This document shows, in pieces, positions 52,668 through 57,164 of a DNA stretch of 64,000 nucleotides. A program made the position numbers and the translations under genes. Each line of letters opens with the position of its first letter. The first letter of the stretch is position 1. The stretch comes from Butyrivibrio fibrisolvens 16/4 (GTDB taxonomy: Bacteria > Bacillota > Clostridia > Lachnospirales > Lachnospiraceae), in contig FP929036.1 of NCBI GenBank assembly GCA_000209815.1, forward strand, positions 1,931,906 through 1,995,905, written 5' to 3'. The notes beneath the pieces are model-generated. The model made no database searches, was not told the DNA's origin, and was given only the letters and a program-made list of their open reading frames with translations.

Positions 52668-53517
52668 TTAATCAAGCTCTATGCTGTCTGAAACATAAAC
52701 TATAAATCCATTTTTATGGGATTCCTTTACTGCAAAATCCTTGAGCTTGCTATCATCTGTATATTCTAACACATATGCCTTCTTTCCGTGAGACACAACA
52801 GAATTCAAATATTCCAAATAATAGTCTCTTGTATCCTCATCATTTTCTGCAAAGGATTTATTATCAAAATCAATTGACGTGTACACACTTTCCTGATTTA
52901 CTCCATCAAGGATACCATCCAGATTTCCATTTTCTTCCAAATATTTGGAAACATAGGCATCGCCACCATTGATTACAATCTGGGCCTTACTATTCTTTAA
53001 CTCCATTAGAATATTGGTAAGTCCCTGATACACTCCATCATTGTTATAATTGTAATAGACATCGGTGTTATCAATAAAAATCCATCAACACCTTTGTTTA
53101 ATATTGGTTTTGCCAAATCCTTTACAACAAAATCCTGCCATCTTTCATCTGCCACATTAACCCAGTATTCTTCTTCCCAATTTTCGTAGGGTCCTAAAAT
53201 CAAATCCTCGTATTCTGGAAAATAATCTCTAAAATCTTCAATAGAACCAACATTAAGATAAGATAACACAGTCCCATTGGTCTCTTTTAATTCAGCTATT
53301 TCCTTCTTTGAATAATACTGAGCATCGATAACTATTGTTTCGCAACTTACATCTTCTGGAAGCTCAGAATAGTTGTCACTAAGATATACGCCATATTCAT
53401 TTTTATATTTTTCAGTATCTACATCAACGCATCCCACTAAAATTGAACTCAGCAGCACCAATGAAATAATGGATACGTATTTTTTGTTTTCTTTAAATTG
53501 ATAATTCTTTTTTTCAA
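52668..53517 (-). CDS. Secreted GH114-like lipoprotein (two frameshifts)
   Basis: Reconstructed protein of about 283 aa resembling the GH114 endo-alpha-1,4-polygalactosaminidase/TM1410 fold. Core motifs: VIDAQYYSKKEIAELKETNGTVLSYLNVGSIEDFRDYF, the catalytic-region-like GVDGFFIDNTDVYYNYN, KNSKAQIVINGGDAYV and GKKAYVLEYTDDSKLKDF. The signal peptide KKYVSIISLVLLSSILVGC has a lipobox. Two breaks, T6 53480–53485 and A5 53076–53080, are each mended by one base. The start is TTG 53515–53517 after AAGGTG. Likely surface-anchored and acting on an amino-sugar polymer; the activity is inferred. A TGCTATAAT box upstream is a promoter candidate. Confidence 0.72.
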
Positions 53518-53661: not shown

Positions 53662-54433
53662 TTATTTTTGCTCTATCAAATGTACATCCAAATTTATTCC
53701 CTCTGCCTCGGTCGATACCAATAAATTTTTACCTATTATAATTCCAGATTTCTCATATTTAGCAAGTTTCTCCAAATTCTTTTTTGAATATGCAGCATCT
53801 GATGTCAATCCAAAGTGCTCCCAATAATAGGTCTTTCTTTCTCTTGAATTAAGCAATGCAAAATCTGGGTAGCATTGTTGCCCATTATAAAGAATAATCC
53901 TTGGCTCATAACAGTAAACTATTCCATATTTATCAAACAAATCTGCTAGTATTTTTCTGACTTTGACCTAACTAATTCTCCATTATTTGTAGCATATGGC
54001 ATACTGCATTCTATTGTATTTTCTCCTCCAGTATATTTTTCTTTCCATTTGGAAATATATTCATCATCAGGCATTACTATAGGTTTTATCAATTTCTTTC
54101 TACCATCAGATAGTCCTTCATACAAATTATTTCTGAATAACACATTATACTTTTTGTAAAGATTGAAATCGCCTTTTCCTGATTCTGAATTTCTTGCAAC
54201 ATCTTCTCATAATAATCTCTCTGGGCCAATCTAGCCGCGAATCCCTTATCCTTTGCAGCTATATATTCCATATCCCCTTTATTTCTTCGGAAATAATATT
54301 GAAACCATCTGTCAGATTTTCTAACCACCAGAAAGCAGTCTTTAATATCCGAGTTATTTTTTAATTGCTGTATAACATATTCCTTCTGTTCTTTGATAAT
54401 TGCTAATTCGTTTTCTAGTTCATCTATTTTCAT
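53662..54433 (-). CDS. PD-(D/E)XK nuclease-like protein (two frameshifts)
   Basis: Appears as three overlapping pieces. One base added in T4 54174–54177 and one in T5 53952–53956 give a continuous 257-aa protein. The N-terminal half is a helical Glu/Lys/Arg-rich region with KDKGFAARLAQRDYYEKMLQEI. The C-terminal half has a nuclease-like core: SEKILADLFDKYGIVYCYEP, CYPDFALLN, KTYYWEHFGLTSDAAY and KLAKYEKSGI, with Glu, PD, E-H and Lys in PD-(D/E)XK order. I know of similar uncharacterised Firmicute proteins but no named function. AAAGGA precedes the ATG. It sits directly downstream of the palindrome array, whose last half-site covers its –35 position. Confidence 0.65.
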
Positions 54434-54491: not shown

Positions 54492-54814
54492 GCAGTAGTC
54501 TTCTAGATGTCCTCTACAGCATAATTACCATTACATTTTAATATGCAGTAGCCTTTACCTGAATACCTACTGCATCAGTACAAAATCTTGATCTACGCAG
54601 TATTAATAATTCTACTGTCTACTGCAGATATCATATTTATATCTGTTACGCAGTAGGTCACAAAATTCTATCTACTGCACGATTAATACTTTCTCCCCTT
54701 ACGCAGTAGATACCCAAAAACATCCTACTGCTCAGTTAATACTTTTCCTCTTACGCAGTAGACACTGCAAAACACTCTACTGCACAAATGGTGTTCCCAT
54801 CACATATGCTGTAT
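54492..54814. repeat. Regular array of six GCAGTAG/CTACTGC palindromes
   Basis: This 395-nt gene-free gap holds six dyads GCAGTAG-N15-CTACTGC. Left arms start at 54492, 54545, 54597, 54650, 54703 and 54755; right arms at 54514, 54567, 54619, 54672, 54725 and 54777. The arm-to-arm offset is exactly 22 nt in all six and the unit pitch is 52–53. A degenerate seventh left arm (GCTGTAT) sits at 54808, again at the expected pitch. Units 4–6 are perfect and share (G)TTAATACTTT...CTTAC between dyads; unit 1 has CTACAGC and unit 3 GCAGTAT. The 15-nt centres differ. Spacing near five and two helical turns suggests protein binding sites on one DNA face; six RNA hairpins are the alternative. Confidence 0.9.
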
Positions 54815-54828
54815 TAATCCCCTAAATA

Positions 54829-57164
54829 TCAGCTTATTTTCTTTATAAATAGCTTGATATCACCATCCAGCACCTTCACTCGTCCAGAATTCATGGTGTA
54901 ATATATCCTAGCGCCAGAGTTTTCCAGACGTTGGATGGCTTCATCAGCTGGATGTCCATACCTGTTTCTCTTAGAACAACTGATAACAGCAACATCAGGT
55001 GATATAACAGAAAGAAAATCTGCATCAGAGCTGTAGCGGCTGCCGTGGTGGCTTACTTTTAATAGGTTTACATGCTCCACCAAGCCTAAGGATGCTATCA
55101 GCTTTTCCTGCTCTGAGCCAATGTCTCCACCGAAGAAGGCACTATAATCAACTATTCCATCTAAATCATTGTCATATTCCATCAAAAGAGAAAGTGACAG
55201 TGCATTAATGTCATCTGAGCTATCATTATCTCCTGGGTATACACATTTAAATCGTAGATGCCTTGTTCCGCATAAATCACCTTGATTCATATATAAAATA
55301 TTTGTGTCATTTTTCTTCCCCAAAGAAATGATTTCAGCCCAAGCATCCCCTTTTGGAATTTGTGAAGACAATACAATATTTTCAATATCATACCCCTCCT
55401 CCAAAAGATCCAATAATCCAGAAATGTGATCCTCATCTGTATGAGATACAAACCAGTAATCTATTCTATTTGCACCCTTATATTTCAGAAATGGAAGTAG
55501 CACGTATTGTCCAACCTTATCCGATGACGTACTTCCTCCATCTATAAAGAAACGAATCCCATCTCCGGAGTCTATAAAGATTCCATCCCCTTGACCCACA
55601 TCTAAAATATCAATTTCAAACTTACCCCTAGTTGGTGCAACCCAGATCAGACACATAAACAAGAGCAATACTACTTTTCCTAGAAGTCCTCCAAATATTA
55701 CGCTTGATGTTTTTCCTAAAGACTTATAGCGTTTTTCCTCTAATCCTCTTTTCCACTTCACAAGATAATCCATGCCATGTATTACAAAAACAAGTATCAA
55801 ATAGTAAGCCGCCACTATCCAAACACTCTTATGCCCTACAATAATTTCCGCTAATGGTAGCTTGTTTACAAAAGAAGAAAGCAGCTCATAAAAATAAATA
55901 ACAATATGGCATATATAAAGAAGCTCCTCTGCTATTGGCATGAAGAATAATCCCATAACCCCAGCCACGAGCCCAACACCAATAACAACCGGCATCAATG
56001 GCAGAACGATAATATTTAATAGTAATGAGTACAGAGGGGTCTGATGATAAAGCTGAGTCACTATAGGGAGCATTGCTGCATACATCCCCAGAGAAAAAAT
56101 CAGACTTCTAATAATGTATTGAATTATTCTTCTACCCAATGGAGCTTTTTCTTCTATGAAATGCTCATGGGATTTATTAGCCTTTTTAATAATCTTGCAA
56201 TGATTTGTATATGCGGTATTAAGAGGTAGGACTATAAAGTATATTCCTATAACCGCAGAAAATGAAAATATAAAACTTCCATTTCTGATATAAAGCGGAT
56301 TATCGAAAAGCAGTACGTCTGCCATAAGTGCAAGGGCTGTTAGCATGTCGTATTTCTCCCCTACAACCTGAGCCAAAAGATATACTAAAAACATCCCAAT
56401 AGCCCTAATGGAAGAAACACTTCCTCCAGTAATAATTCCATATAAGACAGCAACAATCCCTGCCCAAAAACTGCACCATAAAAAACTCAAACCTCCTTTT
56501 CTTAGAAGTCTGTATAAATACATGCAAATGATTGACACGTGTAGGCCGGATACTGCCAAAATATGGGCTATTCCTACATCCTGAAAAAGTGATTTCAGCT
56601 CACCATCTAATCCGCTTTTTTCTCCGACAATTACACCAGAAAGAAACCCAGCTTCCTCTCCTGGCAGAGCTTCCTCGTAAACCTTAGAAATCTGTCTACG
56701 AACTAAAAAGCCAAAATCAATACTAGAAAAATAATTACTTTGATAATCATAAAAACTAATATCCTGAAGCTCAAAATATAAGCCTAGGGAATTGTAATAA
56801 TCCTTCATATCTAAGCAACCATCGTTAGTGGCTACGGAAAAATGTTTTATTCTTCCTTTTATATTTAATTTACTATTGTTTGGGATTTCATCCGAATCAA
56901 TTTTAAAAAGAAATGAAATGTTTGAAAGTGTTTTGCTTCCAGTGGTAATAGAAGCGTTTTTTACATAATAAAGAACTTTGTCTTTTTAATTTCCTTGTGA
57001 TAAACTAAGCCTTCGGCATTTGCAAAAGAATCCTCTACAAGATGTTCTTCCACAGCCTCAGCTTTATCATATACCCCCAGGAAATCCCAGGGGGCATATG
57101 AACTAATGGCAATTATAAGAATAATCACAAAGGAAATCCTACAAAGTACACGACCTTGTAACAT
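54829..57164 (-). CDS. comEC: DNA internalization channel ComEC/Rec2 (frameshifted near the start)
   Basis: Membrane channel that passes single-stranded DNA during transformation. The reconstructed length is about 778 aa. The N-terminal membrane segment RISFVIILIIAISSYAPWDF and OB-fold-like region (ITTGSKTLSNISFLFKID) are followed by the Competence domain (GEEAGFLSGVIVGEKSGLD, IAHILAVSGLHVSII, GGSVSSIRAIGMFLVYLLA) with many helices. The C-terminal metallo-beta-lactamase-like domain shows DILDVGQGDGIFI, VSHTDEDHISGLLDLL and KVSHHGSRYSSDADFL. The frame breaks at T5 56983–56987; one base restores HKEIKKDKVLYYVKNASI. Last gene of the comEA–RR–HK–GerMN operon. Confidence 0.93.

Follow-up and report, generated by a model that had tools for sequence, protein, structure and literature searches.

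The evidence gathered from the window, that is, the whole 64-kb stretch of DNA analysed, and from related genomes leads us to interpret a phased array of six palindromic units as an array of double-stranded DNA binding sites for the adjoining coiled-coil/PD-(D/E)XK-like nuclease, working in the manner of a REPIN-RAYT pair with an unrelated enzyme, a reading to which we assign a probability of about 0.6. The window array is one copy of a seemingly undescribed nuclease-linked repeat family of gut and rumen bacteria.

The six dyads of the form GCAGTAG-N15-CTACTGC (Table 1) show an arm offset of 22 in every case and a unit pitch of 53, 52, 53, 53 and 52, and the geometry reported in the first-pass annotation is thus confirmed by a dyad scan together with Markov simulations. 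The window has six dyads with at most one mismatch, and 60 simulated 64-kb sequences (first-order Markov) have a mean of 0.017 and at most one; seven matches with at most three mismatches compare to 1.67 expected. A generic phased-dyad detector (at least three units, pitch 40-70) returns only the six-dyad array from the window and nothing from 25 simulations. The seventh left arm that had been proposed (GCTGTAT) is present in the expected register, but agrees with the arm at five of seven positions only and by itself does not exceed chance. The proposed gradient of wear, with units 4-6 perfect and those on the nuclease side worn, did not hold in this simple form, because the worn units are 1 and 3 and the perfect ones 2, 4, 5 and 6. 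Across the own genome, a single contig of 3.16 Mb, all four occurrences of the exact dyad with N13-17 are in the window array, and the looser pattern RYAGTAR-N15-YTACTRY occurs at six places, four of them in the window array, as compared to five for the reversed control; no other comEC-type array was found there by these two patterns. The window has no match in Rfam at gathering scores, and a tRNA scan found none. Elsewhere in the same genome, at ~2.66 Mb, there is an open family paralogue (L030, 5849-6658) with arrays of its own that have AGTACT-type arms.

Table 1. Coordinates of the array and of neighbouring features in the window
Feature	Coordinates	Strand	Remarks
Phased array, six palindromic units (GCAGTAG-N15-CTACTGC, pitch 52-53)	54492..54783	.	
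Dyad 1	54492..54520	.	one mismatch
Dyad 2	54545..54573	.	perfect arms
Dyad 3	54597..54625	.	one mismatch
Dyad 4	54650..54678	.	perfect arms
Dyad 5	54703..54731	.	perfect arms
Dyad 6	54755..54783	.	perfect arms
Candidate worn seventh left arm GCTGTAT	54808..54814	+	arm identity 5/7; in phase; alone not above chance
Broken cognate nuclease gene, N-terminal piece	54134..54433	-	tblastn; residues 1-100 of intact relative
Broken cognate nuclease gene, middle piece, another frame	53952..54152	-	tblastn; residues 95-161 of intact relative
Broken cognate nuclease gene, PD-(D/E)XK-like piece, third frame	53665..53964	-	tblastn, family search; residues 158-257
comEC (Competence + metallo-beta-lactamase domains), syntenic neighbour	54829..56808	-	Pfam

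The nuclease candidate beside the array is a single broken gene, its three pieces lying in three frames of the minus strand. A broken nuclease, together with the lack of a further array by the two patterns in the window's genome, is as expected of a relic, on the basis of one case. The adjacent GH114/TIGR01370-like gene (window 52668-53461, minus strand) is likewise interrupted, running over two overlapping frames, and this part of the window thus comprises two decayed genes side by side. comEC has its minus-strand 3' end at 54829, which places the array downstream of the gene and 45 bp from its stop codon, and a comEC-type end adjoins the nuclease gene in most of the loci L006-L018. This proximity is what would speak for an operator of comEC, or for a centromere- or origin-like site special to the comEC locus, a reading that is already highly improbable given the array's position downstream of comEC and the occurrence of arrays of the same kind before nuclease paralogues elsewhere and alone. 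A partnership with comEC is thus not supported: the apparent partner is the nuclease family, and solo arrays of the same type are found at many intergenic sites in congeners.

Relatives of the window's last nuclease piece are present in 32 of 61 genomes, the own genome included, with up to 11 per genome; across the order, the nuclease family was found in 44 of 295 sampled genomes, representing two families and 17 of 129 genera. Intact proteins have about 263-265 amino acids, arranged as a helix, three strands and a long helix, followed by a C-terminal domain in which RSKSE, PDF and EH residues are invariant among 14 aligned sequences. The acidic residues by which PD-(D/E)XK enzymes are recognised are in place, with E160, D191, E206 and H207 invariant in 14/14 sequences, six of which were ORFs chosen by a filter for RSKSE and PDF. 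The AlphaFold2 model has a mean pLDDT of 89.6 for the whole protein (pTM 0.61) and of 92.4 for the N-terminal domain. Structural comparison of the C-terminal domain gave middling Z scores throughout, 8.7 for I-Bth0305I (rmsd 2.5 over 89), 8.1 for Bax1 (3.0 over 98) and 7.9 for TnsA (3.3 over 113), which are compatible with the modelled domain being a PD-(D/E)XK-like nuclease. Foldseek returned no match with E ≤ 0.001, to a Nop domain as in TIGR-Tas or to any other, for the whole protein or the N-terminal domain; prefoldin-like coiled coils ranked first in the fold search with the N-terminal domain, none with E ≤ 0.001. TasH was absent among the best 50 rows of that search, and the TasH rows in a second structural comparison covered the coiled coil alone.

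For 14 family members, Pfam gave no match over the cut-off and NCBIfam gave none. In all 14, the nuclease domain matches the C-terminal part of PADLOC PDC-S68, a candidate defence system whose model has ~1200 positions. A sequence search of the PDB gave no match to the 14-member alignment and four matches to the N-terminal domain with E 0.4-0.96. Viral contigs contained 15 pattern stretches, none of them a relative; phage records gave three matches, one spanning 88% of the query at 30% identity and two reaching the nuclease domain; and plasmids gave eight, none spanning >80% of the query. Of nine pairs compared, one is saturated and the other eight have a nuclease dN/dS of 0.09-0.20; intact nuclease genes are therefore under constraint.

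The association of arrays with the family was analysed for 104 distinct genes (117 before removal of duplicates; from 49 + 80 loci), defined as ORFs with the catalytic motif, some of them short and hence probably broken. A strict detector (7-bp arms with at most one mismatch, successive arms 5/7 alike, at least three units, steady pitch of 40-70, within 800 bp) found an upstream array in 53 of the 98 genes with enough upstream sequence, compared to 1/369 far-flank pieces and 0/98 shuffles. Downstream, it found arrays at 3/102 genes (L008, L009, L012), all at the comEC locus and each also with an upstream array; at these loci, arrays flank the nuclease gene on both sides. With a relaxed detector, 57/98 upstream pieces gave a pitch of 50-54 and 7/98 one of 61-65, together 64/98, as compared to five and zero region-pitch matches, respectively, in the 369 far-flank pieces. 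The remaining 34 pieces showed no five- or six-turn array by the relaxed detector, 30 being chainless and four having chains at 31, 42, 74 and 90. By autocorrelation alone, 34/98 upstream pieces exceeded the 99th percentile of the control pieces, a smaller number than either dyad detector gave.

Each paralogue group has its private arms (GATAGTAG, GACACGCA, TACCGCC, ACTTGCCT, TACGGGC, CAGTACT and others). Arrays of family genes have units numbering up to at least 14, and many of them have centres and linkers that closely resemble one another from unit to unit. Five loci (L006, L007, L019, L103, L104) exhibit two alternating unit types in a super-repeat of ~104 bp, equal to ten DNA turns, as if units had been duplicated in pairs. 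In 52 arrays of pitch 50-54, AAAA/TTTT runs cluster at both dyad axes of the unit, ~26 bp (2.5 turns) apart, with none in the arm region.

When the pitch was left free between 25 and 110, the best values for the 62 upstream pieces with an array were 42 (one piece), 50-54 (52 pieces), 62-64 (five) and 105-108 (four), with nothing else; the relaxed scan of 98 upstream pieces gave no pitch at 55-61. Stray relaxed chains, mostly single, at 31, 42, 47, 74, 78-80 and 90 involved 8/98 pieces, and in four of these eight there is a 52-53 array as well. At 10.5 bp per turn, pitches of 42, 52.5 and 63 amount to 4, 5 and 6 turns, these whole-turn classes having been noticed after the data were seen. The helical phasing suggested from the window array alone is hence borne out in the relatives, whose pitch gathers at ~5 or 6 turns and avoids 55-61. 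On a nuclease tree of 86 proteins, which includes five of the seven members of the 63-bp class and scores genes with <500 bp upstream as arrayless, this class requires four changes, at least three of them forced by well-supported branches; shifts between five and six turns therefore occurred more than once. The arm-to-arm offset within the unit varies between paralogues (19-31), and the pitch hardly varies. Such a combination of variable offset and near-fixed pitch is easier to reconcile with proteins stacked along one side of the double helix than with an RNA hairpin.

Selection on the arms, proposed initially from their conservation in the window, is supported by seven ortholog pairs, which when summed show divergence at 51/814 arm sites (6.3%) and 230/1443 spacer sites (15.9%), the sites not being independent. 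Arms are less diverged than spacers in five of the seven pairs; L094/L102 is nearly equal (22.3% vs 23.1%), and L089/L091 goes in the opposite direction, on 2 and 1 differences. Among 46 arrays, arm similarity correlates with similarity of the N-terminal domain at rho 0.335 (partial 0.26 given the C-terminal domain) and with that of the C-terminal domain at 0.26 (partial 0.14), which lends modest support to arm recognition by the N-terminal domain.

An RNA-based system, in which the array is a multi-hairpin leader processed into guide or antitoxin RNAs as in TIGR-Tas or type III toxin-antitoxin loci, would account for the array's position directly upstream of the nuclease gene. The script-assigned start codon follows the last arm at a distance of 14-46 bp in 10/39 arrays, and the leader transcript therefore probably includes some of the array; promoter-like matches before or after the arrays gave no clear pattern. 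TIGR-Tas (PMC12045711) provides a precedent for one protein working with a tandem array of stem-loops, and the six centres in the window all differ. The centres in many other arrays do not look like spacers, because they are near copies of each other. Stem mismatches on the coding strand of 54 arrays (pitch 49-55) comprise 67 G.T, 57 A.C and 110 others (p = 0.42), a comparison that serves as a balance test only because the detector itself limits mismatches. With no excess of G.U over A.C, with the pitch gathered at whole DNA turns and with the window lacking an Rfam match, the RNA system appears distinctly unlikely, and of the DNA and RNA possibilities considered at the outset a nucleoprotein-type DNA site is favoured.

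The dyads are also dispersed in congeners. Searched with RRYAGTAR-N15-YTACTRYY, 29 Pseudobutyrivibrio genomes contain up to 55 matches (G018), as compared to 0-5 for the reversed control; ten genomes have none. Twenty stretches at pattern matches away from nuclease genes were inspected, 19 of which hold 22 solo arrays of 3-9 units each. All 22 sit between ORFs of at least 120 amino acids, one overlapping an ORF by 5 bp, and no trace of a nuclease was found at solo arrays in the 20 stretches, at five further loci or at six earlier ones. The congener dyads are a dispersed repeat family that consists mostly of phased arrays, and not a scattered repeat. Against the conditions set for rejecting the first-pass reading, the outcome is mixed: tandems exist in related genomes, with their spacing conserved, but they do not always adjoin the same gene, standing before nuclease paralogues as well as alone; confinement to a single array, as found in the window's genome by two patterns, does not extend to the congeners.

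G003 and G013 have no matches to this N15 pattern and instead have N14 clusters of pitch 50-52, mostly 51, both at the comEC nuclease and at solo sites; in the other lineages seen, N15 with pitch 52-53 is shared by arrays next to the nuclease and by solo ones. Solo arrays therefore have the spacing of their lineage's nuclease array. G011 and G019 contain many solo arrays with GGCAGTAG arms, their nuclease array having GATAGTA. Possession of a clade nuclease is associated with at least eight dyads (11/12 vs 3/17; Fisher p = 1.2e-4, with a threshold set after the fact and dyads counted by two patterns). In G017, which has a comEC-clade nuclease, the strict detector finds no array, the relaxed one gives only a weak match, and there is no dyad cluster elsewhere. 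The genomes G023, G025 and G006 contain 27, 16 and 8 dyads, respectively, and their best family match shares at most 52% identity with the window's piece; a comEC-type nuclease thus seems to be missing from them.

Several sites bear on gain, loss and possible copying of arrays. One syntenic gene pair has a gap of 111-114 bp without an array (G008, G023) and of 363-488 bp with one (G006, G018), and no target-site duplication is evident at this presence/absence site. Among 26 methyltransferase loci, four show both flanking genes, two with and two without the array; two more have the array next to another or a distant neighbour, and the other 20 are uninformative. At the SGNH-hydrolase locus an array is found at one locus each of G011 and G019, and no empty site is apparent because the far-side gene was not found elsewhere. 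Three loci of G025 have array copies of 83-87% identity among themselves vs 74-81% to another G025 array, so that whole-array copying is only suggestive. At the syntenic gene pair mentioned above, G025 (L170; G025:C4:5500-14500) has a couple of similar five-unit arrays, both oriented alike, with ~4 kb between them that this gene pair lacks in G006; it looks like an array-flanked segment. The comEC locus of G023, in a fragmented assembly, has an array and no nuclease gene. Of its two breakpoints, one falls within an arm and the other at the 3' end of comEC, and a clean array-array recombination was therefore rejected for this locus.

These observations bear on a reading in which the array is solely a cooperative double-stranded DNA operator for the nuclease or another regulator, with solo arrays spread passively by recombination and slippage and the nuclease taking no part in the spread. 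The usual place of the array 5' of the nuclease gene and its helical phasing fit an operator, the 104-bp higher-order repeats resemble products of unequal crossing-over, and arrays persist in the three genomes seemingly devoid of a comEC-type nuclease. An operator alone accounts poorly for up to 55 dyads per genome and for solo arrays in many intergenic settings, as well as for the solo spacing that in G003 and G013 differs jointly with that of the nuclease array, and we consider it unlikely.

In the preferred reading, of a binding-site array for the nuclease, a symmetric assembly of the enzyme (dimer or higher) would contact the arms through the N-terminal coiled-coil/three-strand domain, and copies of it would be arranged next to one another along the same face of the helix. 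Occupancy of the array may control the nuclease gene and mark sites where the nuclease acts, which would include the matching solo arrays. Breaks or recombination stimulated by the nuclease could then spread, expand and lose arrays, a step that we infer because of the presence/absence differences, the changes in copy number and the dispersal. The fuller proposal of a two-part element, in which a paralogue-specific palindromic code word, repeated at whole helical turns, is bound side by side and copied to further intergenic sites by cutting and recombination, with spacing and sequence co-evolving with the enzyme, is put forward tentatively, at somewhat less than even odds.

Among the titles and abstracts listed by searches of the open full-text literature, none describes such a nuclease-array system, subscription journals and preprints being mostly outside this coverage; no known family with a testable defining enzyme fits. 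If right, the proposal adds a system of nuclease and arrays distinct from CRISPR, TIGR, toxin-antitoxin and REP-transposase systems. Change of spacing by whole helical turns would come close to a physical trace of proteins aligned along DNA, and the private arms of the paralogues would offer a natural library for reading out the enzyme's DNA recognition.

Among known systems, CRISPR differs in its identical repeats and unique spacers, whereas here the centres and linkers are near copies in many arrays, although those of the window differ in their centres. Type III toxin-antitoxin loci (ToxIN, CptIN, AbiQ) have tandem repeats directly upstream of a nuclease gene, and the order of repeat array and nuclease is all that they share with the arrays described here. 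Neither Pfam (E up to 0.1) nor NCBIfam (E up to 0.01) matches any of 14 family members to ToxN/AbiQ or another toxin family, the 14-46 bp before the start codon in 10/39 loci would leave little room for a terminator, the palindromes are phased as DNA, and solo arrays are dispersed. EDxHD/Vsr-like homing endonucleases (I-Bth0305I), Bax1 and TnsA resemble the modelled protein in the probable PD-(D/E)XK fold of its C-terminal domain, at middling Z and with Foldseek E >0.001; we know of no counterpart among them to the family's N-terminal domain and arrays. TIGR-Tas, as described in an excerpt of its published account (PMC12045711), combines a tandem palindrome-bearing array with one small protein, sometimes with a nuclease domain, and is similar in having such an array beside one small protein. 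TIGR-Tas units have a 36-nt dual-repeat form or are stem-loops with 8-12 nt spacers between boxes C and D; the system differs from the arrays here in the former, the units here being 50-54 or 62-64 bp (~52.5 or 63 bp) with conserved arms and centres that are often near copies, and in its RuvC or HNH nuclease as compared to the PD-(D/E)XK-like one found here.

The closest analogy is to REPIN-RAYT, for which excerpts of two accounts (PMC3116915, PMC8266576) describe an enzyme gene with its own palindromes adjoining, dispersed intergenic copies, and more than one enzyme type, every type being paired with a palindrome of its own. Spread of ordinary REP/BIME sequences by a RAYT (HUH Y1) transposase might be suspected from the dispersed intergenic palindromes, from the AGTAG contained in comEC-type arms and from Y1_Tnp matches in G000, G003, G013 (fragments) and G023. 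This explanation is contradicted for the genomes examined and retains hardly any plausibility: Y1_Tnp (PF01797) is missing from 7/11 genomes, among them the array-rich G008, G011, G012, G014, G018 and G019, and the arrays go with another enzyme, which is PD-(D/E)XK-like with conserved E..PDF..EH and not an HUH Y1 transposase, the 14 family proteins having no Pfam match over the cut-off. The GTAG tetranucleotide before the stem is likewise not a feature of the arms of many other paralogues (GACACGCA, TACCGCC, TACGGGC), and the tandem arrays at whole helical turns contrast with the single or paired, GTAG-tagged hairpins of REPIN-RAYT. What is shared is the palindromes adjoining the nuclease gene (53/98), cognate to it as judged by arm-protein correlation only, and the dispersed intergenic copies of comEC-type arms in congeners, with none by two patterns in the own genome. 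If the proposal holds, the nuclease-linked arrays offer another, independent example in which to ask what lets pairs of palindrome and enzyme like REPIN-RAYT persist.
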